A stretch of 64,000 nucleotides of DNA from Neelides folsomi (lineage: Eukaryota; Arthropoda; Collembola; Neelipleona; Neelidae): contig JAQGBZ010000015.1 in the NCBI GenBank assembly GCA_034687125.1, positions 1 through 64,000 on the forward strand, read 5' to 3'. The notes under the pieces were generated by a model. That model had not been told where the DNA came from. It saw nothing but the letters and a program-made list of their open reading frames with translations, and made no database searches. Each line of letters opens with the position of its first letter. Position 1 is the stretch's first letter. A program made the translations under genes and the position numbers. Below, in pieces: positions 4,099 through 43,284 of this stretch.

Positions 4099-4665
4099 CA
4101 GGGTGGTCCTTAAGTTGGTATCTTTTTTATAGGGTTTTAGTTTTAAGATAATGATAGTTAAAAATCTTAAATATAGTTGATTAGTGGGTAATATGTTAAG
4201 TTAATATGTTGTCAACTATAAACTGATATTGTCAAACCGCTAATAAACGGTAGCTACTTTTGTTAGAGAAAGCGTGATTTCTCTTTTCACCATTTCTCTG
4301 AGAAAGCGTTTTATTCCTTTCTCATTTCTTTGATTTTATAATCTAATTATGGAGAATAGGCGCCGATTAAATAAAGACGAAAGGATTTACGTTGTTGAAG
4401 TGTTTGCTCGGGTGAATAACGCAGCAGCAGCTGCTCGAAGATGGCCTTTTGCTAATTTAGCACCAACTTGTTCAGCAATCCGAAAAGTGGTGAGAAAGTT
4501 TAAGGAGACTGGTAGTATCTTGGATAAAAAATCGAGTGGACGACCAAGAACAATTCGCACCGAAGAAAACCTCAACGTCATAAGGACCAGAGTTGAAGAA
4601 AGGCCTACAGAATCAATTAATATAATTACAATTAATGTTAGAGCTCCAAGTTGAGGGGCACCCTG
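4099..4665 (+). mobile_element. internally deleted mariner/Tc1-like element
   Basis: The left end CAGGGTGGTCCTTAAGTT follows a TA at 4097-4098. Its inverted copy, AAGTTGAGGGGCACCCTG, ends at 4665; 14 of 18 positions match. Between the ends lies only the DNA-binding part of a transposase-like ORF; the catalytic domain is absent. The right flank reads CCTA rather than a clean TA. A dead, about 567-bp non-autonomous copy fits best. Confidence 0.6.
4349..4654 (+). pseudogene. transposase N-terminal HTH fragment (DUF4817-like)
   Basis: The 101-codon frame begins MENRRRLNKDERIYVVEVFA and carries the helix-turn-helix of mariner/Tc1-related transposases (KDERIYVVEVFA..NNAAAAARRW), followed by the linker SGRPRTIRTEENL and the start of a second helical segment. 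It then stops inside the right terminal repeat. No DDE/D catalytic residues follow. An intact transposase would be about 340 aa, so this is a truncated remnant unless the host has co-opted the domain. Confidence 0.7.
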
Positions 4666-13710: not shown

Positions 13711-14810
13711 ATGGTAAATGGAAGTCGGGTGGAATTTGAATTTGAAAAGATGAACGTTGAATGGTGGCGTGAGCGGATTTCAATACATTGGGATATTCCT
13801 TATTTTATATGCGGGATTTATCTTTTACTCGTTTTTGGGTCGAAAAGGATCATGAAGAACCGAAAACCTTTTGACCTCAAACAGCCTTTGATTATTTGGA
13901 ATTCCTCATTAGCCGCCTTTTCAATTATTGGCACTTACAGAATCGGACCAGATATAATGAACAATTTGTTTCACAATGGGATTTATAATATGACATGCAC
14001 AAGGTATAATTAATTATATTAATCATTTTTATGAATCAATGAAATAAAAATAAAATCTAAATAAATAGCGTAAATTATGAGTGTATTTATGAAATGAATT
14101 TTAAATTTTAATCAATCAATTTAATTCCATTTCAGGTTGCCACAAAGTGGATTAATGTCTTTTTGGATTTTCGCCTTTACCATTTCAAAAATCTTTGAAC
14201 TTTTTGATACATTTTTTATAACGCTAAGAAAGAAGAATTTAATTTTTCTTCATTGGTAATAAAATTTTAAAGTTTCAAATAAGATATAATTATTGTCACA
14301 CTTCACACTTGATAAATTATAATTTTTTAATTATAATAACTATAAATATTTAATACGATTTTGTATTTGTTTAGGTATCACCACGTGTCAGTTCTTCTCA
14401 TCAGCTTTCATAATTATCCATATGATTATCCAATCATGTGGACTTATATCCTCAACTACTTTGTTCATGCAGTGATGTATAGTTACTATGCTATTGTGGT
14501 AAGTTATTAAAAATATTCCTTATTGGATTCATTTCTAATTGATTTTTAATTCTTAAAATAGGCGGCAGGTTTCAAAATTCCTAAGAATATTTCAATGTCC
14601 ATCACTATGCTCCAAATGAGTCAATTTTTAGCAGGGTTTTGCATTTTTATTTATGCAATGTCCAAAAAAATGAACGGGGAAGGATGTGAAGCAGAAATGA
14701 GTGATTTGGTCATTTATTGTCTACTCGGAATTTCCTATTTTGTCCTATTTGGGAATTTCTTCAGACACAGCTACGGAGCAAAAGGAAAAAAGATCTTAAA
14801 GTCAGAATAA
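13711..14810 (+). CDS. ELOVL6: ELOVL6-type very-long-chain fatty-acid elongase, 261 aa
   Basis: Four exons (13711-14003, 14136-14255, 14375-14498, 14562-14810) join with matching phases. Family role: the 3-ketoacyl-CoA synthase step of ER chain elongation, typically C16 to C18 for ELOVL6. Visible signatures are FEFEK near the N-terminus, KIFELFDTFFITLRK, the catalytic histidine box HWYHH (H137, H140, H141), YFVHAVMYSYYA, and the TMLQMSQF motif. About seven membrane helices are expected. The tail KGKKILKSE is a lysine-rich ER-retrieval-like end. The first ATG directly follows a good acceptor (GTTTAG|ATG), so a short upstream coding exon cannot be excluded; one candidate at about 13460 would need a rare GC donor. 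Confidence 0.92.
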
Positions 14811-15252: not shown

Positions 15253-16808
15253 TTATATAAGACGATTTGGATCAATTCCGACTAATTGACTAGAAACTTT
15301 CCATAACATTGTTTGCTTTGATATTGACGTTGTTTCTTTCTTCGGGGGGACAATTTGGGAATTTTGAATGTAAATTCCTCCCCGTTTGAACTTTGGCGAA
15401 AGAGCAGCGTTTAAAATACAATCAGCACCAGCGCTCGGCGCCTTCATTTTATTCGCAAATAATTTCATAAAGAATTTTTGAAATATGTCCAAATTCTCTA
15501 GTAAATCCGTCATGGAAGCCGAGGGGTGGAGGGAATAATGATGAACGAACAAATTCTCCATTTTGCATCTTTTTTCAAAATAATTGCTAAAATAGATTTG
15601 CATCAGTTTCGAGTCCATATATCCTTTATGGGCAGAATAGCATTCACTACATGTCAATAAAATAATATAAAAATATTTTTTTAATTCCAATAATAATAAT
15701 AAAATAAAATTTCAGCCAATATTTGAAGGATTGTATATAATTTGCTTATATTACATACTTAGGTAATATGATCAATAAAATATTAAATATAGTTTTCATA
15801 TATGAAACCAACGTTTTTTGAAGGTCTTTATAGTTAATTTTTCCTCCGTAGTGAAGGCCAGCCGAAACATTGACGACTTTTGAGTAATTTCGCTCATTAC
15901 CACTCTCGTGGAGTTTTTTAATGAGCAAGTTGGTGAGAAGGAAGTGGCTCAAATAATTAACTTGGAAATGAGACTCAAGCCCATCTTCAGTTAATGCATA
16001 CGGCGCAAACATGATCCCGGCTTTTTCCCATTTTAATATAATTAACTATGAACTTATATGACTGGAATTTTTAAAAATATTATAATAATCCCGAGGGTAT
16101 TACCATTATTAATAAGAAGATTTAATGGGGTTTTCTTATCCATAACCCATTTTGCAAATTCCCTCACGGAATCCAAAGATGTTAAATTTAATTGGTGGCA
16201 TTCAGCAGTTCCAGTTTTTATTCCGCTTTTTCTCACCTTCAAAATCATTTCATTTCCAACTTCAGGATTTCTGCAACCTAATGACATTTTTTAATTATTA
16301 ACTAAAATATTAATATCAATCTTATATTTGATTTAATGTTCAACTGGAAAATTAAATCATTTAAAAATTTTATTGTGAATTTACCAATAATTACGTGGAA
16401 TTGACATGTGAGAAGTTTCTTTACAACTTCAAGCCCAATTCCCCGATTCCCACCAGTAATTACAGCAACTCCCCCACTCTTAATTTCTATTGTCAAAGTG
16501 GGCTTAATTCATTTTAATTACACAGTATTATTTATTAATTTACCATATATTAATATAAGTTTATATTATATATTTATTACGTAGTTAAATAGTAAAATAG
16601 GCAATATAAATATTCGAAGAAAATAATATATACAGAGGCTAGATATATAGTAGTTTTAAAAATTGTTTGTATTACGTTTCGGGTTGAATGGAACATGAGT
16701 TTCAAAAAATACTTCTTTAATGATCCCATAAAACGCAATGGTTGACATTAGCAAATAATAATAGATTTGATGGGATTTTTCAATTGTTTTCCTCCATATA
16801 TGATTCAT
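15253..16808 (-). CDS. DHRSX: DHRSX-like short-chain dehydrogenase/reductase, 336 aa
   Basis: Five exons on the minus strand (16676-16808, 16385-16486, 16104-16277, 15813-16020, 15253-15646) close in phase. A membrane helix (residues about 17-33) and a short linker (VPFNPK) precede the Rossmann domain, as in vertebrate DHRSX. SDR motifs: TGGNRGIG at 55-62, NNAG at 135-138, and catalytic Y215-x3-K219 in ECYSAHKGYMDSK. The strand-5 motif reads NVSAG, where many relatives have a second Ser. The C-terminal QTMLWKVSSQLVG also matches the DHRSX type. Known role of DHRSX: polyprenol dehydrogenase/dolichal reductase in dolichol synthesis. The third intron uses a weak donor (GTTGGT). A related retinol-dehydrogenase-type SDR is the alternative. 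Confidence 0.85.
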
Positions 16809-18020: not shown

Positions 18021-19705
18021 ATGTCCAATGAAAAATTAATCAAATTATGGAAAAGTTTATTAAAAGTTCTTGAGTTTATATTTTTAATAATTTTGTCTAT
18101 TGTGCTTGCATTTGTTGGAGTCTTCTCTTTCCCATTTTGTATTCCTTTTTATGTTCTTCGGATCTTTGTCAAATTCCTCGCCCGTGTTTTTAATCCTCAA
18201 TTAGGGAAAATGTTGACAACTCAAAGTGTGACTTTTGGTTGTGATGATTTTTACACTTTACCTAAAACTACCATCGTGGCAACTTTGTTTGACAAGTCCA
18301 ATCATACAATTTTTAATTATCGTCACCACGTTCAAAAAACTCTCATTGATGGAGCTGACACAGAAGAAATGAAGCAATATGTCCACAATTGGCTCGGGTT
18401 TTTGTTTTGGAAAAATGAATCAAATTTTGCTATTGAAGATCATTGTGGATTTTACAGTGGAGAATATTCGAAAGTTAAGTTCATTAACAGGGAGATCCTT
18501 GGGAAAATGATTAATGAATTACTAACGAAGCCTTTTGAGAATGAAAAAAGTCCATGGGAAATCCTTTACGTCCCTCCAACACCTGCAGATGTTGAGGGGA
18601 ACAGCGGAAATACAATCAGCATAGTTTTCATTCGTTTTCACCATTCAATGACCGATGGATTTTCCCTGATTAAAATAATGTTGAGGGCTTCGGACCACGA
18701 CGAAGCATGGGAACAAGCTCACGCAGCTTTTAGGAACATTAAACTCCCAGCGGCTAAATCCCGCTACGAAGAAGTGACGCGAATCCTGAGGATTCCCTTT
18801 GTTCTTCCCTACGAATTCGCAGAGCTCTGTTTGAACATGATGAAGGAACGGCATGGGTTTTATGGGAAAGTAAAAGATTTGAAGAAAACCTACAATTTGA
18901 CCTTTAGTGCTCCTATCCCGATTGAGTATGTCAAAGGGGTCAAGGAGTTGGTTGGAGGAAGCGTCACGGCCATTCTTTACACAGCTTTCACTGGAGCTCT
19001 TCGGAGTTTTATGGTCGAACGCGGGATGAAGGTCAAAGGGAATATCCATGTCTCGGCCCCTTTGCCGATGCCTGGCCATCCTTCAAAATTAAGAAATTTT
19101 GCGTAAATTCCCAAAACAATTAATTAATTTACTGAACATTATTTATGGATTCATTTCAATTTTTTTCTCATTTTAGCTCCGTGGTTTTTCTTACACTTCC
19201 GCTGGAACTGGAATGTCCTTTGGAGAGATTGGAGTTTCTGGAATCCCAATTTAAGAAAAAGAAGAAATCTCCCATGGCCTTTTTCTCTTTTAAATTGGCT
19301 TCTTTTGCTGGAGCGCTTCCTGTATGGCTCTTGAAGCCTTTTCTTCAAGCTTCTTGGTCCACAATCATCTCTTCGGTTCCAGGAGCTTCCAAAAGATTGA
19401 TCATTGCAGGATCGGAATGTGAACAAGTTATTTACACAAATGGACTCGGGCCTGGAAGAATTGGTAATTCAAATAAAGTTTTAAGAATTATAGAGGAATA
19501 TTTAAAAACATCTCGATTTTCAGGAATATCACTTTCCATATCTGGATATGGAGGTTTTGTGACCATCACTCTTTTAATTGATGACTTCTTTACTCCCCAT
19601 TTTTGCGATGTCGACGACTTCACTCAGAGAATCATCAAAGAAATTGAATTACTTAAAAAATTGGGAGAAGAAAAACAATTAAAATGTATTTCTAATGATA
19701 GTTAA
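18021..19705 (+). CDS. wax ester synthase/DGAT (WSD) family acyltransferase, copy 1, 516 aa
   Basis: Exons 18021-19102, 19177-19463 and 19524-19705 close in phase. A strong N-terminal membrane helix (about residues 15-46) precedes the acyltransferase domain with the active-site motif HHSMTDG (H207, H208, D212). The C-terminal DUF1298-type half starts at the second exon and ends near NGLGPGRIGISLSISGYGG. Family reaction: acyl-CoA-dependent acylation of fatty alcohol or diacylglycerol to give wax ester or triacylglycerol. Unlike copies 2 and 3 it has no intron at the catalytic motif. Its proximal C-terminal segment (VVFLTLPLELECPLERLEF) departs from the other copies, which read GI(M/L)(R/K)xPVG. 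The ATG at 18021 was chosen over the in-frame GTG at 18009. First of three tandem copies. Confidence 0.88.
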
Positions 19706-20777
19706 GTATGTAAGTCCTCGTATCGATAGTTGAGGAATCAAATATAGGTAACTACATTACATATTTATGTTTCCTATTTAATTGTACATACTTAATACTA
19801 ATCTCTAGTCATAGGGCGTCATAGAGTAAGTTTTATGTTCATTTGACACACACAGATAAGTCCCTACGAAGAATGAAAAATACATACATAATTAGGATCT
19901 TATAGTCTCAATCAGCAAAAGAAATGCACTAGTATGTACAATTAGAGACTTGTTGACCATAAAACCTGAAATCAGTATGATCATCCTACCCAGCAAAACT
20001 CCCAGTTTTTTACATTTTATATTATTTTAAATTTTATACCTTATAATTAATGATATATAAATTATTATTATATTAAAATGTAATGTATTATCAAACAATA
20101 AAAATATAACTATCTGTATTAGAGTATATAATATGGTAATTAGGTAATTACATAATAAGATATGTATGAGTATAAGTATTATATAACCTTATTAAGATAA
20201 ATATTTATCCTATGTTTGTATAGATTACTTACCCATATACCTACACTAATAGTATTACCCAGTTACGCATATAAAAATCAAGAAAAAAAATACTTGAACA
20301 TAACATATGGTAGAGTCTGTTGTATAACTACATATAATACAAAATCAATGTGAATTGAAATGCAGCAAATAAAGAATACTTTAAATACAAAATCTAAAGG
20401 ATGTACTTTATAGCATATTTCGTGATTTCAATCTTTTTCTTCTCATAACCTCTTTATCATTATGACCTAATACGGCAAGCATCCCTTTATTCTCTTCATA
20501 TTTCCTTCATTTTAAAAAATTAGCTAAACAATATGGGTGTATTATAATTAAAACGGCTTAATAATCAACTTCATAATCCGAACGTTCCTCCCTTTCCTAA
20601 TACATTTGTATCTTCCACGAAATCTGTACGCTAATTAATCATTATTTTACCAGCCATTTTCATATTGGAAATTATCAAAGTTTGAATCCTTCTCATTGAA
20701 GTCTCCGCACTCAGGGAAAGTTTAGTTCTAATTGGTTAAAGTTATATATCTACATTATTTATCACATTTATTTCAAA
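19706..20777. other. intergenic between WSD copies 1 and 2
   Basis: AT-rich. No gene or repeat recognised. 20640-20730 is less AT-rich and probably contains the promoter and leader of copy 2. Confidence 0.5.
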
Positions 20778-22585
20778 ATGATCACTTCAAAACTCAAAAT
20801 TTCAAAAATAAGGCGTTTTTTCCTTCTTTTCCTATATTCCCTTTTATTTGTGTTGTTTACATTGTCAATTTTGGTCATTGGAACTCCATTTTACATCTTA
20901 AGGCCCTGTGTCAAAATCCTCGCAAGGGTTTTTAATAAGAATTTGGGGAAAATGGTCGTTTCGCGTGCTTTTTTGTTCGCATATGACAATTTCTCCTCCA
21001 GACCAATGTATTCCATCTTGGCCAGTTTTGTGTACGACGAAGGGTTTGAAATTGAGAAATTGCACATGTTAATACAAGATGCTTATTTCAAAAATTCGAA
21101 ACCTGACGAAGTTGCCGAATTGAGGCAATACATTTCCAAATGGTGCGGATTTTTATTTTGGAAAAATGAGGATAATTTCTCCTTGGCGGATCATGTCCGG
21201 ACCTACGAAGGAAGTGAAGCGAAAGTGGAGACGCTGACTCGAGAAGGATTGTTCAAAATATATAAACAATTAGCAGTGAAGCCTTTTGGAGTTGAAAAGA
21301 GTCCTTGGGAAATTATTTATTTACCGCTTCGGAAATGCGAACTTGAAGGAATAAGTGATGGGGAAAAGAGATCGATTCTCTTTTTGAAATTCCATCATGC
21401 ACTCACTGATGTAATTAATTTAATTAGCAATAATCATAAAATATTTAATAAATTAATAAAGTATCAGATTAACTATGTAAGTTTTAATATATTTAATGAT
21501 TAAAAATTTTAGGGGTTTTCTCTTCTTAAACTTTTACAAAAGACCACAGTTCGAATGGATAACATGGGACTCCCAATAGCCAATTTTAAAAAATACATTG
21601 AACCAAAAAGTTCCTTTTTACACCAAGTGATAAGTTTCTTTAAAGTTTTCTTCACCCTTCCCTTCGAAGTGGCGGTGTTTCTTGAGATGATGGCAAACGA
21701 CCACCATGGCTTGTTGGTTCCAAAGGAGAAGCAAAAGCTCAGCTATGCCTCCACATTTTCACGGCCAATTCCTCTTGAGCTTTTTAAAGAAATTAAAGAC
21801 GCCCATGAAGTGAGTTTGAATTCGCTAATCTACGCGGGTTTTACCGGAGCCATCCGGGATTTTATGATCCAACGAGGGATGAAAGTGCCCGAGTACATCG
21901 CTTATGGAATTCCAATGCCCAGACCAAATCATCCAAGAAAACTTCGAAATCATGCGTAATCATAAAAAATAATATTTAGTAAAATAAAATGTATTTGCTT
22001 GATTGTTGTTCTATTGGTATAAAATACTTACAGGAAGTAATTTATATTAAAATTTTAGGACAGTTGGGATCATGAGGGCACCTGTGGGGATGGAAAATCC
22101 GACTGAGCGACTTAAATTCGTAGATGAAGAATTGAGCAGATTGAAAAAGAGCACCATTCCTTATGCTGGATTTTACTTGACTCCTATGTTGGGGACTTTG
22201 CCTTGTTGGCTAGCTAAGAGATTCATCAACACGAGATTTTCTACGATGATTTCCGCCTTTGCGGGCCCTTCCATTTCACTGAACTGTTTTGGAAAAGAAG
22301 TCAAACATGCATTTTTTTCTTGTGGAATCGGCGGACTCGGACCTTTAGGTTTAAATTTAGAAAATAGATCAAAAATTAAATTGACTCCAATATGAAAAAT
22401 TAATATTAAAATGGTATAATTTAGCAATTGGAGTATTCTCCATCACTTATTGCGGGAATATCATCATTGGGACGAGTTTTGACGAATGTTTCATTCACAC
22501 ATTTGAAAGTTGCGAAAAATTCAATGCAAGACTTGTTGAAGAAGTTAAAATGTTAAAATTGAGTCCAAAATGTTTAGAAGTTTAA
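20778..22585 (+). CDS. WSD family acyltransferase, copy 2, 508 aa
   Basis: Exons 20778-21410, 21513-21955, 22059-22348 and 22425-22585 close in phase. Layout as in copy 1: N-terminal helix (residues about 14-38), acceptor-binding part with SPWEI, then the catalytic motif HHALTDG (H206, H207, D211, G212), split by an intron exactly between D and G in phase 0. The C-terminal part has VGIMRAPVGMENPTERLKF and ends with a GIGGLGPL-AIGVFSI junction. The last two coding exons (290 and 161 nt) are identical in length to those of copy 3, showing recent common descent. All key residues are intact, so it should be active. Confidence 0.88.
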
Positions 22586-23162
22586 TACAAATTATTATTA
22601 CAAATGAAGTACATTACATGATTAAATAAAATTTAAACATTTAATATTCTTTTTAATTATTTGATTGTAAATGTAGATTCCATCATTCCATTATCATTAT
22701 TGACCAATAATTTTAAATTTCTAAAGAATAAGCGAATACATAAAAATGCAAACCATGAATGGATATTTAAATTAACTAATTTATCATTAAGCTATCATAA
22801 CATCAACTATCTACAATTGGTTCATATTATTCATATCAAAACATTGCCAATGAACGTTTAGAATGCCAATTTATAAATTAATATATAATGAATAGTATGT
22901 AATTATAAATATCATAATTTATTATGTCGTACTTTATCTAACTTTTAAAGAAATTAAATACCATTATGTGGCTTATGTGTTCTTATTTTCAATCTCATAT
23001 CTCTACTATTTATATTAGGTTGTATTTAAATATGTTTAAGATTATTTCATTCAAATTATTATTATTGGATTTTACATATTCCATTGATCCATCTCACATA
23101 TAAGTTTAAAAATTAGAAAGTTTTTTTAATTTTGTGGAAATCCCACCTATAAAATAAAATGA
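22586..23162. other. intergenic, nothing recognised
   Basis: AT-rich. An open frame at 22661-22861 has no coding character. Confidence 0.5.
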
Positions 23163-23170
23163 TATAAATA
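23163..23170 (+). promoter_or_regulatory. TATA box (TATAAATA)
   Basis: Lies 116 bases before the ATG and matches, with flanks, the TATA region before the paralogue at 6828. Confidence 0.5.
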
Positions 23171-23278
23171 AAAAGGGTATGGTCCAGGTTTGTTTGCCGG
23201 AAGAGAAAAAGAATTTCACCCCAACTTCTTCCCTATAATGGATATAATGTTTTGGTCACTTGGTCTTGAGTTTCGCTT

Positions 23279-23657
23279 ATGAAAGAAATGGCTCCCTTAG
23301 TAGCCATCCCTCATTTACATTTTAAGATTAAGGAATATTTTGCATTCTTGAATAAAATTAAAATCGAATTTCAATGGACAAACGTCACAGTAGAACACAT
23401 TCTGAGTTCACATTTACTTAAAGCAACAATGAGCGACAATGGGAGTTCTGACGGTCTCAGAAAGAATCCTCCCTGGGAAAGAAAAATTGGTGAACTATTC
23501 ATCAATGAAGGGGTTCCGGAAGTAGTAAGAACAACTTTAGAAACGCCGTTCCTCCAGCACAAGTTTATTAGGTAAGCCCACTAATCGTGAATACAATCAT
23601 TTAAATTTCTTTTTTCGTAGAAAACAGAGCACCCAAATAAGTAGCCACAACACTTGA
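23279..23657 (+). CDS. long copy of the duplicated unknown gene, 109 aa
   Basis: Exon 1 (23279-23571) splices in phase 2 (TTAG|GTAAGC ... TTCGTAG|AAAAC) to a 37-nt exon (23621-23657). The protein starts MKEMAPLVAIPHLHF, has the YFAFLNKIK core shared with the gene at 6828, and ends with a segment ELFINEGVPEVVRTTLETPF before a Ser/Gln-rich tail. No signal peptide or membrane helix. Family and function unknown. The region just after the exon 1 donor encodes a decayed repeat of the end of exon 1. The splice model rests on frame alone, so the true 3' structure could differ. Confidence 0.5.
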
Positions 23658-23691
23658 AATCCCTTTCCTTAATCACGAATTCATAAAGTAA
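23641..23691 (+). pseudogene. decayed tandem copy of the exon-1 end of the preceding gene
   Basis: In its own frame this stretch reads VATTLEIPFLNHEFIK then stop, an evident copy of VRTTLETPFLQHKFIR that ends exon 1 at 23571. At the DNA level the flanking GTAAGCCCAC / GTAAACCTAC is also repeated. An in-frame stop at 23638-23640 blocks reading into it. It overlaps the proposed 37-nt exon in another frame. Confidence 0.5.
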
Positions 23692-23864
23692 ACCTACATA
23701 AGATTAAATTACAATCTTTTCAATTTTCATTTTCAAAATAGTTGTAAATTTTTAAAAAAAATTCTAGCGTATTCTACTATTCCAATTTCTTTCCTAATGT
23801 TTAGCATAGTAATTTTTATTTCCCCTATATATTCTAAATCTTCGAACAATTTTATAAGCATTTC

Positions 23865-24405
23865 ATGTTGTGTGGTATTTGGATTATCATTTTGATGATT
23901 TGGATTTCTTGTAGTCAGCCTGGCGATGCTCTTGGAGGTGGTCATCGTTGTTACGGAACTTTGAGCTTGTTTGTTAATGGAAATTTGATCACCAATATGA
24001 TCTTAACTAAGAAACAAAATTCAGATTCACACACTTTCACGGTAGGTACTAATATAACATCACAATTTGTATAATAATAAAATTCCTATTAATTGTAGCA
24101 CATTGATATCAATAGACAATAATTGAAATAAAATTATAAAAAAAATAATTCACAGTGATATTATTTAAATAATGTAAAAGGCTCTAATTTATTTAAATTT
24201 TATTTTATTGTAATAGGTTCGGGCTTATGTTACAGGAGAAACCCGTTATTCACATTGCCAATACGTCAGGCATATTAACACACCATTGGAGGTTCAACTT
24301 CAAAATATGAGACTGTTCTCAAATTGGGTCAGACCGACCGAGGAGGGGGCAAATGCTGATCCGACTACGTCAAGATTCTTAAATTTTATCCTATATGAGA
24401 ATTAG
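23865..24405 (+). CDS. small secreted protein, 121 aa, unknown family
   Basis: Exons 23865-24041 and 24217-24405 join in phase 0. The N-terminus (MLCGIWIIILMIWISCSQPG) is a clear signal peptide with cleavage expected near residue 23. The mature part, about 98 residues, has only two cysteines (RCYGT and SHCQY), which probably pair. It contains alternating polar/hydrophobic strands (TLSLFVNGNLIT, VRAYVTGETRY) suggesting a small beta-sandwich. No transmembrane helix follows. It sits between WSD copies 2 and 3. I recognise no family. Confidence 0.7.
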
Positions 24406-25105
24406 AGAGTCATTTAATGTTGAAATTTAAATAAATTTATTTCAAAAAGTAAACAATCACTCGAGTTTGTCATTTTTAAAATATATAGGTAATACATCTT
24501 TCAAAGTAATGAATGGTTAACGTCGAGTTGATCAGGCAGAATTCTCAAATGGTTTTATAATCTGTCAATCTATTGATCCATTCATCATAGTACTATTAAC
24601 TATTAAAAGGAAACATCATGTCTACATACCATAGTACTCGTATGTATAATTGTTAGAGGCCAACAATGGTATTCTATTCATACTTATGTACACTGTCTTA
24701 CTTATTATTCCTATTACTTATTTACTAATATGCAAGTAGGTATGTAATATACTATAATATGTATGTATTTATTCACATATTTTACATCCCATCTATGACA
24801 TTAACACTTGTGCAACAATGGTATAATTACATAATTCATTATTTTTCCTTAGCTCAATGGAGAGAGAAACGAATTTATAATTAGTGTTAATTACTACTAT
24901 GAACGGATATGACCTTTTTAATCCCAAACAACTATTTATTTTCTCAGAAGAATTATCCTCGAATTATTTGAATTAATTGTTCTTCAAGGTAAAATGAAGT
25001 TTTATTTTGTCTCATTCTTTTACATGTATTACACTCATGTTCAGTTAATCATTTTCTTTCTTAATTTTTAATCCAAATTTACTAGAAATCGTTTAATTGT
25101 ATAAA
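24406..25105. other. intergenic before WSD copy 3
   Basis: AT-rich; nothing recognised. Confidence 0.5.
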
Positions 25106-27054
25106 ATGAATAAAATTTATAAGCAAAATATCTTCAAGCATATCTTTTTAAAATTAGGAATATTTTTGGTGACCATTGTGGCCATTGTTTTGTTCATCCC
25201 ATTGGTTTTCCTCCTCTCTCCTCTGTACATTCTGAGGTATTTGGTCAAAGTGTTTGCTCCCTTCATTCGCCCCGATTTGGGTAAAATGCTCACTAGTCGA
25301 AGCGGCCTTTGCGCCACAGACGACTACGACGTTAAGCCAAATTTAACCCTCATGATTGCCGGAATCTACGAAAAGTTCGAGTTGAAGGAAATGACCGAAT
25401 ACATGGAGAATTGGTACAGAGGGGAAAAACGGGAGGAGACGACCGAATTGACTCAATACGTTGTCAAATGGTTTGGATATTACTTTTGGAAAAACGAAGA
25501 AAACTTTAATTTCTCCGAACACATTGTGGAGTATGATGGGAAGTATAAGGATTGCAAAGTGATTGATAGGGAGATCATCAGTTACATGGGAGGAGAAATC
25601 GGAGCTAAACCATTTAAAAGAGGGAGAAGCCCCTGGGAAGTCATTTTGGTTCCAAATGTTTTGCCCCTCGATGATGAAATTTCAAATAAAGAAACAAAGA
25701 AATATTCGATGATGGTCATTAGAGTTCATCATACCTTGGCAGATGGGTAAAAATTTTGAATTTTTAAAATTATGATTTTGTATTTAATTTTATTATTTTA
25801 ACTTTATTTTAATTCTGCACAGTTATTAGGTAATTAAATAAAATATAATTTAAAACATTTTTTATTAATATTAATTTAAATAATTTATTCCATCGTAAAT
25901 AATATTTTTATTGCTTAATTACAGTTACTCGTTAATTAAACTATTCGAAAAAGTGATCAGCAGCTCAAATACTAAATTCCAAACGGCCCAGCCGAATTTC
26001 GAAAGATACAAAACCGGGCCAATATGTAGCTTTTTCAAGACGTTGTGGATGTTTTTGAGAGGACCCTTTGAGCTTGTGGAACAAATTTTGACCATCGACG
26101 ACGTCAACGCCTTTCATCTCCCAGAGAGCAAATTGAAAAAAAAGTCAACGTCCGTTTTGACGGCCCCCATTCCGGTCGACTTATTCAAAGAAATCAAAAA
26201 GCTCCATGGAGTTTCCTTCACTTCCGTCATCATCGCGGCTTTCACCGGAGGGCTCAGAAAATTTATGTTGAAAAACGGGTTTGAAATTCCAACATTCATG
26301 CATTGCACTATTCCTCTGCCTCTTCCGGGGCATCCAAACAAATTAAGAAATTTCTTGTGAGTTAAAATAAGATTATCAGTATAAATTGGTTAATAATTAT
26401 TAATTCATTTTTATTTGGTTTTAAAGGACAATTGGAATCTTGAAGATTCCTGTTGGGCTTGAAAGTCCAATCGAGCGATTGAAATTTATCGAAAAGGATA
26501 TTGAGCGTCTTAAGACTTCCGCAGTTCCGCTGTTGATTTTCTATGTTTCTCCTTTAATCTCCTGCTTGCCATATCAAATGAGTAGAGTTTTCTTCAAGAA
26601 TAATCAAACCACCACAATCCTTACAAACTTCCCAGGAGGAAACGAAAAGAAAAACTTTATGGGAAAACACCTCAGAAGTTCTTTCTTTGGCGGGGGACTT
26701 GGGCCGGGAAGATGCGGTCAGTCTTTTTTGCATTACTTGACTTATACCTATAAATTCTATTTATCTGTAAATGCAAAGTATTTAAGAAAGTATTGTATAA
26801 GTAAAAAGTATTTAAGAAAGCCATGTCTATATGTATTATAAATGCTTTCATAAAGTGTCATAAATTAATTAGAATGATTGTTATAATGAATAGGAATTGG
26901 ATTATCATGTTTGAGCTACGGTGACGAGATCATAATGGGAACGGGATGCGATCGCGGGCTTTTCCAAACAACGGCCAAAAACAGAGAACTTAACGATGCG
27001 GTTGTAGAAGAACTTCAGGAGCTTAAGAGATTTGGACTTATGGAAATTTGCTAA
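25106..27054 (+). CDS. WSD family acyltransferase, copy 3, 507 aa
   Basis: Exons 25106-25746, 25925-26356, 26427-26716 and 26894-27054 close in phase. N-terminal membrane helix at about residues 13-40, SPWEVI, catalytic motif HHTLADG (H208, H209, D213, G214), then GILKIPVGLESPIERLKF and GGGLGPGRCGIGLS in the C-terminal half. The intron at the catalytic motif splits the Gly codon (GG|T, phase 2), two bases downstream of the intron in copy 2. Otherwise the gene is collinear with copy 2, with equal-length last exons. Intron 3 carries the direct repeat AAAGTATTTAAGAAAG twice. The ATG at 25106 was preferred over the in-frame TTG at 25097. Confidence 0.88.
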
Positions 27055-39410: not shown

Positions 39411-42400
39411 ATGGTAAAACCCAAGAAAAAACTCCTAACTCCTAAATCTCCAGGCATTTCAAAGTTGAAAATTTCCACAAAATCCAAATTAAAAGATTTC
39501 CCGAAGAATCCATTAAACTATCGCATTCAAGATATTCTAGATGATGATGAACAAGTTGAAGAAGTTGAACAAACAGAGAAGGAAATTTCAATTTGCGAGT
39601 CACTCGAATCCGTTCATATAACTCCAAATGAAAAACCAAAATCCAAATGGATCCAAAACGCGTTGTTGGACGAGGAAGCCGTTAACATTAACCAGTTAGA
39701 AGAGGCAGATCAAGAAGAAGAGGAAGATCAAGAGGAAAATAAAGCTAAAGAAGAGGAAGAAGTCAAAAGATTAATGGAATCATTGATACAAGATGAAGAG
39801 TATTACTCAGAACCCATACCCGTACAAATAATATCAATTGTCCGAGAATGTGAAGAATTGGAAAATGGCAAAGATGATGGAGTCAGAATTCACAATCGGA
39901 TATTGAAAAAGATTCGTCCAGCGCCTGTGGAAGTTGCAACCGTAAATCTTTTTCGCGAAATGCTCTTCGTCTTCCTCTTCAAAATGAATAACAAAGATCT
40001 CGATTGTACAAAGGAACTTTGCAATAAGATCAAACCTTGTTTTAAAGATAAAAAAGATTACATTTATATGCTGAATAAATGTCAGAAAGTGTTGGATGAG
40101 ATTGTAAGTTATATAATTATATAATTAATTATTTTAAATACACTTATAAAATTAGTTGAATCAATTAATAGGGGCTTTAATAAAATAATCAGTTATATAA
40201 AACTGATATTATCCATTACAAATTCTTTCATAGTTTGGCCTGAAACTTTATGCTGTTATGGAAGAAGAAATAACCGATGAGTTAAAGCCTTCAACGCAGA
40301 AGTTCATGGTGGTGGGGGATTACAGCGAAGAGTTGAAATTCGTCTTGGACATGATGGAATCAAAGTGGACGAAGGAACAATACTTGGAATTTGATCAAAA
40401 TAGTGAAGTCGAGTGGAAATGCAAAGATGAATATGAAGTTGTAACAAAGGCGCTTCTGTATGCAATTCTTACAGCACTTTTCCTCGAGCTCAAAATGACA
40501 AAGGGGCTTAATGAAGGTTTAATTTTTATGCTAAATATTAAATATTGTAAATTGTATTCATTATAATCTTATTGTATTGTATGCATGTAATGATATTCTT
40601 TTTCCCTAATTGTATATTGTAATACAGAATACATATGGATAAAAATTATTGAGCCATTTAATTTCGATAAAGCCTTGGATCTGACGAATTTGGCAGATTT
40701 GAGGAAATTGATTAAAAAGGTATACTGAAAGAATATGTGAATTTATTAATTTATTGAATGAGTAAAAAATTCCTTAATCAATATTTTCAATAAATTAAAA
40801 TTAAAAAAAGTAATAAAAATTTAATTTGTAGGAATTTTTGAGCACTGGATATCTCTATGTAAGATTCACGAAGGGAAATGACCTATTAGTAGTAAATGAA
40901 AAAAGTATATTTCCTGATGGAAAAGAAGCGATTTATTTTTGGGGTCCTCGGGCCACTAAAGAAGTCTCAAAAATCAATATCATTCAGAGTACCATAACTG
41001 TGAGAATTAAATTCATTTAATCACATTAGAAAATAGTACAAACATTATAATATTACAGGTTTAACCTTAAGTACTCTATAAAATCATAGAAATGCAATAT
41101 ATCATTAAAACCATCAATAATAATTCTTTTATTTAAATTTAGACAATGAGAACGCATGGGAAAGTGAATATCACGATTTTGAGTTTTACCAAACAACTGA
41201 AATGGGTGCGTGAGGAAGCAACAAAGGAAAAAAATCCCACATTGCTTTCATTTGAAGAACACAAATTGCTTTATTATCTTTGCCACTCCCTACGGATCTC
41301 CTATGACCCGACCTTCTTCCTCCGTCCTCAACTCGTGGAGGGAAAGAATGGGAAAATTGTGCGAAAGCGTCGTCCTCGCGGGATAGAACCCGATCCAAGC
41401 AGCATCACTCAGCTCCGAAAATTGATACAGGGCCTTCGGGCATCAGATCCGGATTTGACACGCGTACGAAACATCACCGCCGTGTCCAAGGTCTTTTGGG
41501 ACCTTGTGGTCAAGGAAAATCATCACAAAGATATTTTGGAGTCAATAAGTGACTACTTCCTAGTTCTCTCAATGATCCAAGAAGAAAAAAGGGCAGCTGG
41601 GGATCTTGAAGATTTTGCCCCAAACGAAATTTACAAGCAAATCACATTATCTTTGATGAAAATGAGGAAAGATAAAATGAGAGAAGCAGCAATGAGGAAA
41701 GAGAAAAGGAGGGAAGAGAAAATGAAGGAAGAGAAAATGAGAAAAGATGACGAAATTTTGGCTCAAAGACGATCAACTGTGAACACTCAAAAGACTGTTG
41801 TTTTAGATAATCCATATACTATAGAAGATGTAGAATATATGGAAATTGACAAAGACCTAGAAGTTATTAAGATTTCTAAAGAGGATGAAGAAGTAACTAT
41901 TATTTATGAGGGGAAACATGTACAAGGCAACATTAATGATCAAATGTATAGACAGCGTTTGGAAAAAGATGAAGCAAGTCCAGAAGAAGGTGATGAAGAA
42001 TTTGATTATGATGAGGAAAGCGAAGATGAGGAAGATGATGAAGACCAAGAAACAGTTCATGACAATAATGAAGAAGAAATGAAAGAACAAAAAGAAGACA
42101 AAGTTGATAAAATTCAAGAGGGAAAAGTTGAAAAGCATGAGAATAATGAAGCCATTGAAGATTTTAAAGAAGTTGAATGCCCAGAAGTTAAAGAAAATAA
42201 AGCAGTTGAAGAAGAAATTATCCATGAAGTAAAAAAATTTAAAATTTATGAAGCTGAAAAACAAAAAATTCTCGAAGTTAAAGAAGTTGAAGAAGAGAAA
42301 AATGATGTAGTTGATGTAGATAAAATTAATGTAGTTGATGTAGAGAAAATTAATGAAGTTGAAGTAGAGAAACTTCATAAAGTTGAAGAAGAGAAAATCA

Positions 42401-43284
42401 ATGAAGTTCAAGTAGAAAAAATTGGCGAAGTTAAAGAAACTGAAAATCCAAGCGAGACCATTGATGTCAGCATTAAGGGAAATGATTCATATCACTATGA
42501 ACAAATTAAAGAAAGTTCAAATGATTTTGAAGAAATTGTTGACAGTGTGGAAGCTTTAACTTTGAACCCAGATGATGGAAAAGTACACTATGAAGAAGTG
42601 ACAAGCAATGTAGAAATAGAATGGGACGAAGATCAAGAACTTATCCAAATCCAATTTTCGGAAAGTGAAGAAATAAATTATGCAGATGTGAGCAATTTCC
42701 AAGACCTTCTCATCACTTCTGCTAACAACGAATGTAGAGAAGAAGATGGGGACGAAGGAGCGGATGATCCGATGCTCGGAAGCGACAACAATCTCCAAAC
42801 TTCTCCAATTTTCAGTCTGGCTGAACAAGAACAACAAGAAGGATATTTGCTAGCTGGCCCAGGAGAAAATATTTCGCTCTTTAAAACTCAAGGCGAAAGT
42901 GAAATCATTGTTAATTCAATGGATATTGAACAAAATGAGGAAATCACAACGGGACAACCATTACCATTAAGCATGGAAAATGCAAATGAAAATATTCCTC
43001 AATTAGAAAAAGGTCAAGTTGAGGTCGGAAGGGTAGGAGAGATCAAAAATAAAAGTGAAGGGGTTAAAGGTCAAAGTGAAAAAGGAAATTGTCAAAATGT
43101 GGAGATCAAAGTGAAAAATATGCCAGAAAAGAGTAAAATTCCGCCTCCTGTGGAAGATGGAGAAATTCCAGGGCCTTCTTGGCGAATTAAACCACCACGT
43201 CCGAGACGTTGCAAAAAGAAAATTAATTATTTCTTCCAATCTCCTCCAAAAATTCGACCGGAAACTGATAGTGATGATAGTTGA
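39411..43284 (+). CDS. large acidic charged protein, 1125 aa, unknown family
   Basis: Exons 39411-40103, 40234-40516, 40628-40719, 40832-40999 and 41143-43284 close in phase. Start chosen at MVKPKKKLLTPK, which has a good context (AAAATGG). The basic N-terminus is followed by Glu-rich stretches, a compact part across exons 2-4 (EYIWIKIIEPFNFDKALDLT; GYLYVRFTKGNDLLVV) that looks folded, then a 350-residue Glu/Lys region with ten-residue repeats of VEKINEVEVE type at about 42295-42430, and a proline/basic end (GPSWRIKPPRPRRCKKK). There is no signal peptide or membrane helix. The folded middle part might be recognised by profile search; I cannot name it. Confidence 0.7.

Follow-up and report, generated by a model that had tools for sequence, protein, structure and literature searches.

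We analysed a window of 64,000 nucleotides from the springtail Neelides folsomi (assembly GCA_034687125.1, contig JAQGBZ010000015.1, positions 1 to 64,000 of the forward strand) and found in it three intact genes of the wax ester synthase/diacylglycerol acyltransferase family (WS/DGAT, also WSD). The genes, here called g1, g2 and g3, lie on the same (+) strand and together span exactly positions 18021-27054. g1 (18021..19705) encodes 516 amino acids in three exons (18021-19102, 19177-19463 and 19524-19705), g2 (20778..22585) encodes 508 in four (20778-21410, 21513-21955, 22059-22348 and 22425-22585), and g3 (25106..27054) encodes 507, also in four (25106-25746, 25925-26356, 26427-26716 and 26894-27054). 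The proteins were obtained by joining the exons at consensus splice sites; none of them has an internal stop, and all eight introns are of the GT-AG type with lengths of 60-178 bases. To look for a fourth copy, we searched 1923 six-frame segments (>=20 amino acids each) with a profile at full sensitivity and found none (next best E 1.7).

The C-terminal model of the family, PF06974 (WS_DGAT_C), matched all three proteins above its gathering score of 20.7 (55.4, 43.5 and 55.2 bits for g1, g2 and g3, respectively), and the catalytic model, PF03007 (WS_DGAT_cat), matched only g2 above its own (24.8 versus 23.6 bits). These two models were the only Pfam matches of the three proteins at E <=0.01. 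TIGR02946 (acyl_WS_DGAT) also matched each protein, with a best E of 8.4e-29 for g1 (100.8 bits). Among the structures in the Protein Data Bank (PDB), the profile of g1-g3 matched the 'O-acyltransferase WSD' 7nxg (E 1.4e-12) and the Marinobacter aquaeolei enzyme 6chj (E 4.7e-7). The alignments pair the HHxxxDG motifs and show homology over the greater part of the catalytic and C-terminal regions; other acyltransferase folds appeared at the tail end only (tyrocidine synthase, E 2). Comparison with bacterial WSD profiles using hhalign gave probabilities of 99.9 and 99.8. As judged from these sequence profiles, g1-g3 are homologous to the WS/DGAT acyltransferases, and chance is excluded.

The HHxxxDG motif is kept in all three proteins. 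It reads HHSMTDG in g1 (18639..18659), where it is uninterrupted; HHALTDG in g2 (21393..21515), where a phase 0 intron (21411-21512) separates the final glycine from the rest; and HHTLADG in g3 (25727..25925), where a phase 2 intron (25747-25924) splits the last codon. Each protein also carries a strongly hydrophobic N-terminal segment, a predicted membrane helix, at residues 19-37 in g1 (18075..18131), 16-34 in g2 (20823..20879) and 19-37 in g3 (25160..25216), with Kyte-Doolittle values over 19 residues of 2.77-3.25. On the same scale, none of the 48 bacterial relatives described below, which were cut at 220 residues before the motif, rose above 1.62 ahead of the motif, and their 19-residue segments stayed at or below 2.08 at every position. 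HHxxxDG, which was present in 46 of the 48 bacterial rows of the alignment, starts at residue ~206-208 in g1-g3. For the bacterial frames, residues were numbered from the stop that precedes each of them; on this count, the motif begins at 129-173 in 25 frames and at 180-197 in six; a further 13 frames were cut off at 220, and in four the motif was unmatched by that search pattern.

The three copies have diverged strongly, g2 and g3 being 36% and 32% identical to g1. Two introns are common to all of them: one falls at alignment column 369 in phase 2 and the other at column 469 in phase 1. The copies therefore came from duplication of a spliced gene at the DNA level rather than from retrocopying or separate arrivals. 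With clade support of 100/100 in the tree, the sequences indicate that g1-g3 are old tandem duplicates of one intron-bearing gene, with a common spliced ancestor. Independently of the introns at their motifs, g2 and g3 form a pair in the tree, with support of 92/88 for all columns and 99/92 for the C-terminal half. These motif-site introns, which have no counterpart in g1, lie two bases apart and may represent one intron that slid or two gains. An earlier note on this DNA, made from the sequence alone, had described these coordinates as a tandem cluster of three WS/DGAT genes, and the gene models, the PF06974 matches and the 7nxg and 6chj matches bear this out. Its claims of an intact HHxxxDG in every copy and of a strong N-terminal helix, here seen as a hydrophobic segment, also hold, and the common introns and the clade confirm the local expansion that it proposed. 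The cluster stands as a same-strand array and not as an uninterrupted run: a small two-exon gene (23865-24405, +; exons 23865-24041 and 24217-24405) breaks it between g2 and g3. The product of this gene has a hydrophobic, signal-peptide-like N-terminal start and no Pfam match. At 23592-23734, an imperfect direct repeat, weak at 80% over 25 nt and with a spacing of 118, adjoins an apparently duplicated short coding-like segment.

Bacterial genomes were reached through a Rhodococcus plasmid protein used as the query. With the alignment of the three proteins, matches at E <=1e-6 were found in 97 of 282 genomes in the phylum of genome G003 (Myxococcota by the label of locus L006) and in 62 of 246 in the phylum of G001 (Rhodococcus, Actinomycetota); a third search at the same threshold gave 83 of 235 genomes, largely the same set as in the phylum of G003. 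The loci retrieved contained 51 frames with a match to the window profile; three were duplicates, and their removal left the 48 rows. Fourteen of these scored 86-122 bits and the other 34 scored 15-68 bits; 13 of the 14 came from the G003-phylum and third searches and one from Actinomycetota. The tree comprised the three window proteins and the 48 bacterial rows, with no eukaryotic homologues. In it, the window clade groups with the 14 rows and one further Actinomycetota row (100/99), apart from the other 33, on a stem of 2.61 changes per column, and the C-terminal half gave the same grouping (99/96). A placement of the window clade outside the bacterial subgroup was not rejected on all columns of this eukaryote-free tree (p-AU 0.475, approximately unbiased test). 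Of 200 bootstrap trees made on the C-terminal half, only 2% had a branch that set the subgroup, without the window proteins, apart from everything else, a result that leans towards nesting of the window clade within the subgroup. The near rows were chosen as best matches, the window rows differ in composition and the stem is very long; of the rows compared, the tree thus identifies the closest bacterial relatives of g1-g3, and it does not show transfer. The 14-row subgroup, mainly Myxococcota, resembles g1-g3 in its window-profile scores and tree position, whereas it keeps the ND motif and has no N-terminal helix, the reverse of g1-g3 on both counts. The best plasmid relative was 22% identical. 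Two viral_contigs scans made from the window proteins confirmed no relatives outside bacteria, and none was confirmed when genome_contigs was scanned with the alignment of g1-g3. Two of the bacterial rows, L019 and L020, sit away from the rest on a very long branch that they share (1.61 changes per column) and are possibly another divergent subfamily. High copy number was common in the bacteria examined, with 17, 10 and 15 WS_DGAT_C matches in G001, G002 and G003, respectively.

The genes on both flanks are of animal type. We scanned 19 other proteins or segments of the window, nine of which had Pfam matches at E <=0.01. Upstream, an exon of the ELO family (13711-14010) lies ~4 kb from g1, and pieces of a short-chain dehydrogenase on the opposite strand (within 15746-16508) lie between the two. 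Downstream of the array are a flotillin-like SPFH/Band 7 gene and one for a rhodopsin-type G protein-coupled receptor. The ELO, receptor and SPFH/Band 7 genes, together with zf-C4H2 and EST1 domain matches, point to an animal genome. The GC content at third codon positions (GC3) was 0.379 in g1, 0.407 in g2 and 0.484 in g3, close to the 0.387-0.540 measured across five further coding stretches from the same window. The nearby ELOVL6-type elongase of the earlier note was found as a member of the ELO family, but the link to a pathway that it drew was not upheld: a pathway cluster of g1-g3 with the elongase or the dehydrogenase was set aside because gene order in animals is weak evidence. Elsewhere in the window, a fragment at 4334-4651 (+) matched the DUF4817 helix-turn-helix model and resembles the start of a mariner-type transposase. 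A 713-codon open frame at 41143-43281 (+), whose translation is rich in lysine and glutamate in the part that was read and whose strand skew is purine-rich, had no Pfam match.

In WS/DGAT enzymes, the second histidine of HHxxxDG activates the acceptor hydroxyl, which then attacks the acyl-CoA. We consider g1-g3 to be probably acyl-CoA:alcohol acyltransferases anchored in the endoplasmic reticulum (ER), with wax-type esters as the likeliest product and with an origin as old tandem duplicates; we put the probability of this reading at roughly 0.6. The N-terminal helix would anchor each protein in the ER membrane and leave its catalytic part on the cytosolic side. The motif's second histidine would serve as the base that activates the hydroxyl of an alcohol, and attack on a long-chain acyl-CoA would release CoA and a neutral ester. 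Such an ester, most likely of the wax type, may serve at the surface or in storage, with triacylglycerol as a less likely second product, and g1, g2 and g3 probably now differ in their substrate or in the tissue where they act. A wax-type ester is our first guess by analogy. Here and below, statements from the literature are taken from excerpts of the papers cited. Plant WSDs have predicted membrane segments and an ER location in the case of AtWSD1 (PMC12062176), and Euglena WSDs were judged to make wax esters only (PMC5647427).

Several observations weigh against this reading. The ND motif, present in 46 of the 48 bacterial rows, is replaced by TA, NS and TS in the window proteins. ND is a conserved but not a defining feature of the family, and it reportedly matters for activity in the Acinetobacter enzyme; its loss from all three copies means that activity is not to be assumed. 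The profile check proposed in the earlier note succeeded fully for WS_DGAT_C but only for g2 with the catalytic model, since g1 (18.4 bits, E 0.002) and g3 (16.6 bits, E 0.0068) remained under the gathering score of 23.6. The TIGR02946 score of g1 is far under the NCBI cut-off of 309.95, which indicates homologues that do not belong to the curated bacterial subfamily. Among the 19 other proteins and segments scanned, a set far from the whole window, there was no fatty acyl-CoA reductase, and no poly(A) signal was present within 300 bases 3' of g1, although candidates follow g2 and g3. A single-sequence AlphaFold2 model of g1 residues 1-360 had a mean pLDDT of 41.1 and was discarded.

The loss of ND, together with the divergence of the copies and the short-chain dehydrogenase adjoining the array, would also suit acyltransferases of the same fold that use another acceptor, such as a sterol, retinol, a prenyl, defence or other alcohol, or an amine, so that the product is neither wax nor storage fat. 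There is a precedent in KnWSD1 of the alga Klebsormidium, which makes phytyl esters (PMC12062176). However, the models and structures matched by g1-g3 are those of WS/DGAT, with other folds confined to the tail of the PDB matches, and we regard a different acceptor as unlikely, if worth keeping in mind. It is more doubtful still that the three genes are mainly triacylglycerol synthases, with a storage-fat duty beside DGAT1 and DGAT2, even though many bacterial relatives are bifunctional (PMC9113324).

Missing ND motifs and weak catalytic-half scores might also be expected of catalytically dead or non-enzymatic paralogues. Against this, HHxxxDG and an open frame were kept in all three copies despite their deep divergence, which suggests selection on the site, and inactivity of the whole array appears very improbable. 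Contamination with bacterial DNA, or a bacterial insertion of very recent date, might be considered, as the family was chiefly bacterial in the collections searched. The eight GT-AG introns, two of them common to all copies, the host-like GC3, the animal-type genes on both sides, the low identity of the best plasmid relative and the lack of confirmed relatives in the viral_contigs and genome_contigs scans all argue to the contrary. We rejected this explanation, as the splicing and the flanking genes all but refute it; the description of the genes in the earlier note as spliced and host-like is sustained.

Compared with the bacterial WS/DGAT enzymes, the window proteins are distinguished by their N-terminal membrane segment, their lack of ND and the splicing of their genes. 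Plant WSD1-type wax ester synthases have the same two Pfam domains and predicted membrane segments, a likeness that is by description only. The vertebrate AWAT/DGAT2-type and jojoba/DGAT1-type wax synthases catalyse the same overall class of reaction as proposed here for g1-g3, but they belong to families unrelated to WS/DGAT, those of vertebrates being of the DGAT2 type (PMC9113324). In arthropods, a study published in 2012 on the white wax scale insect listed 26 acyltransferase-like sequences, 11 of them with a wax-synthase match of a type unstated in the excerpts, and described insects as having no identified wax synthase gene (PMC3334986). The highly expressed acyltransferase of a Calanus copepod paper was named DGAT1.

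Mycobacterial WS/DGAT proteins are known under a name nearly identical to 'putative diacylglycerol O-acyltransferase'. In the genome of the springtail Folsomia candida, 116 genes with this annotation form one of the largest expanded families (PMC5490193), an arthropod expansion comparable with g1-g3 by name, the DGAT type being unstated in the excerpts. Owing to the nearly identical name, this family is probably WS/DGAT, and the array found here is less surprising; g1-g3 are probably one more case of a known kind, with an expansion that seems already to be on record in a springtail. The surprise that the earlier note expressed at such an expansion in an animal is weakened to that extent. Overall, its observation is confirmed and its interpretation is partly supported. 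Among the matches listed from a partial coverage of the literature, PMC5490193 gave the only mention of WS/DGAT-type genes in animals, no wax- or DGAT-type mention was matched in the excerpts of other springtail genome papers, and there was no biochemical study of an animal WSD.

A wider scenario is possible but rather doubtful, namely that g1-g3 belong to a distinct, animal-specific and biochemically uncharacterised branch of WS/DGAT, gained anciently from a Myxococcota-type bacterium, which added an N-terminal anchor, lost ND, gained introns, expanded in tandem and offers a route to wax-type esters independent of AWAT/DGAT2. The N-terminal anchor and the missing ND motif provide clear predictions that can be assayed. 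If working, an animal WSD branch would be a second arthropod route to neutral esters, with relevance to cuticle waterproofing and energy storage.

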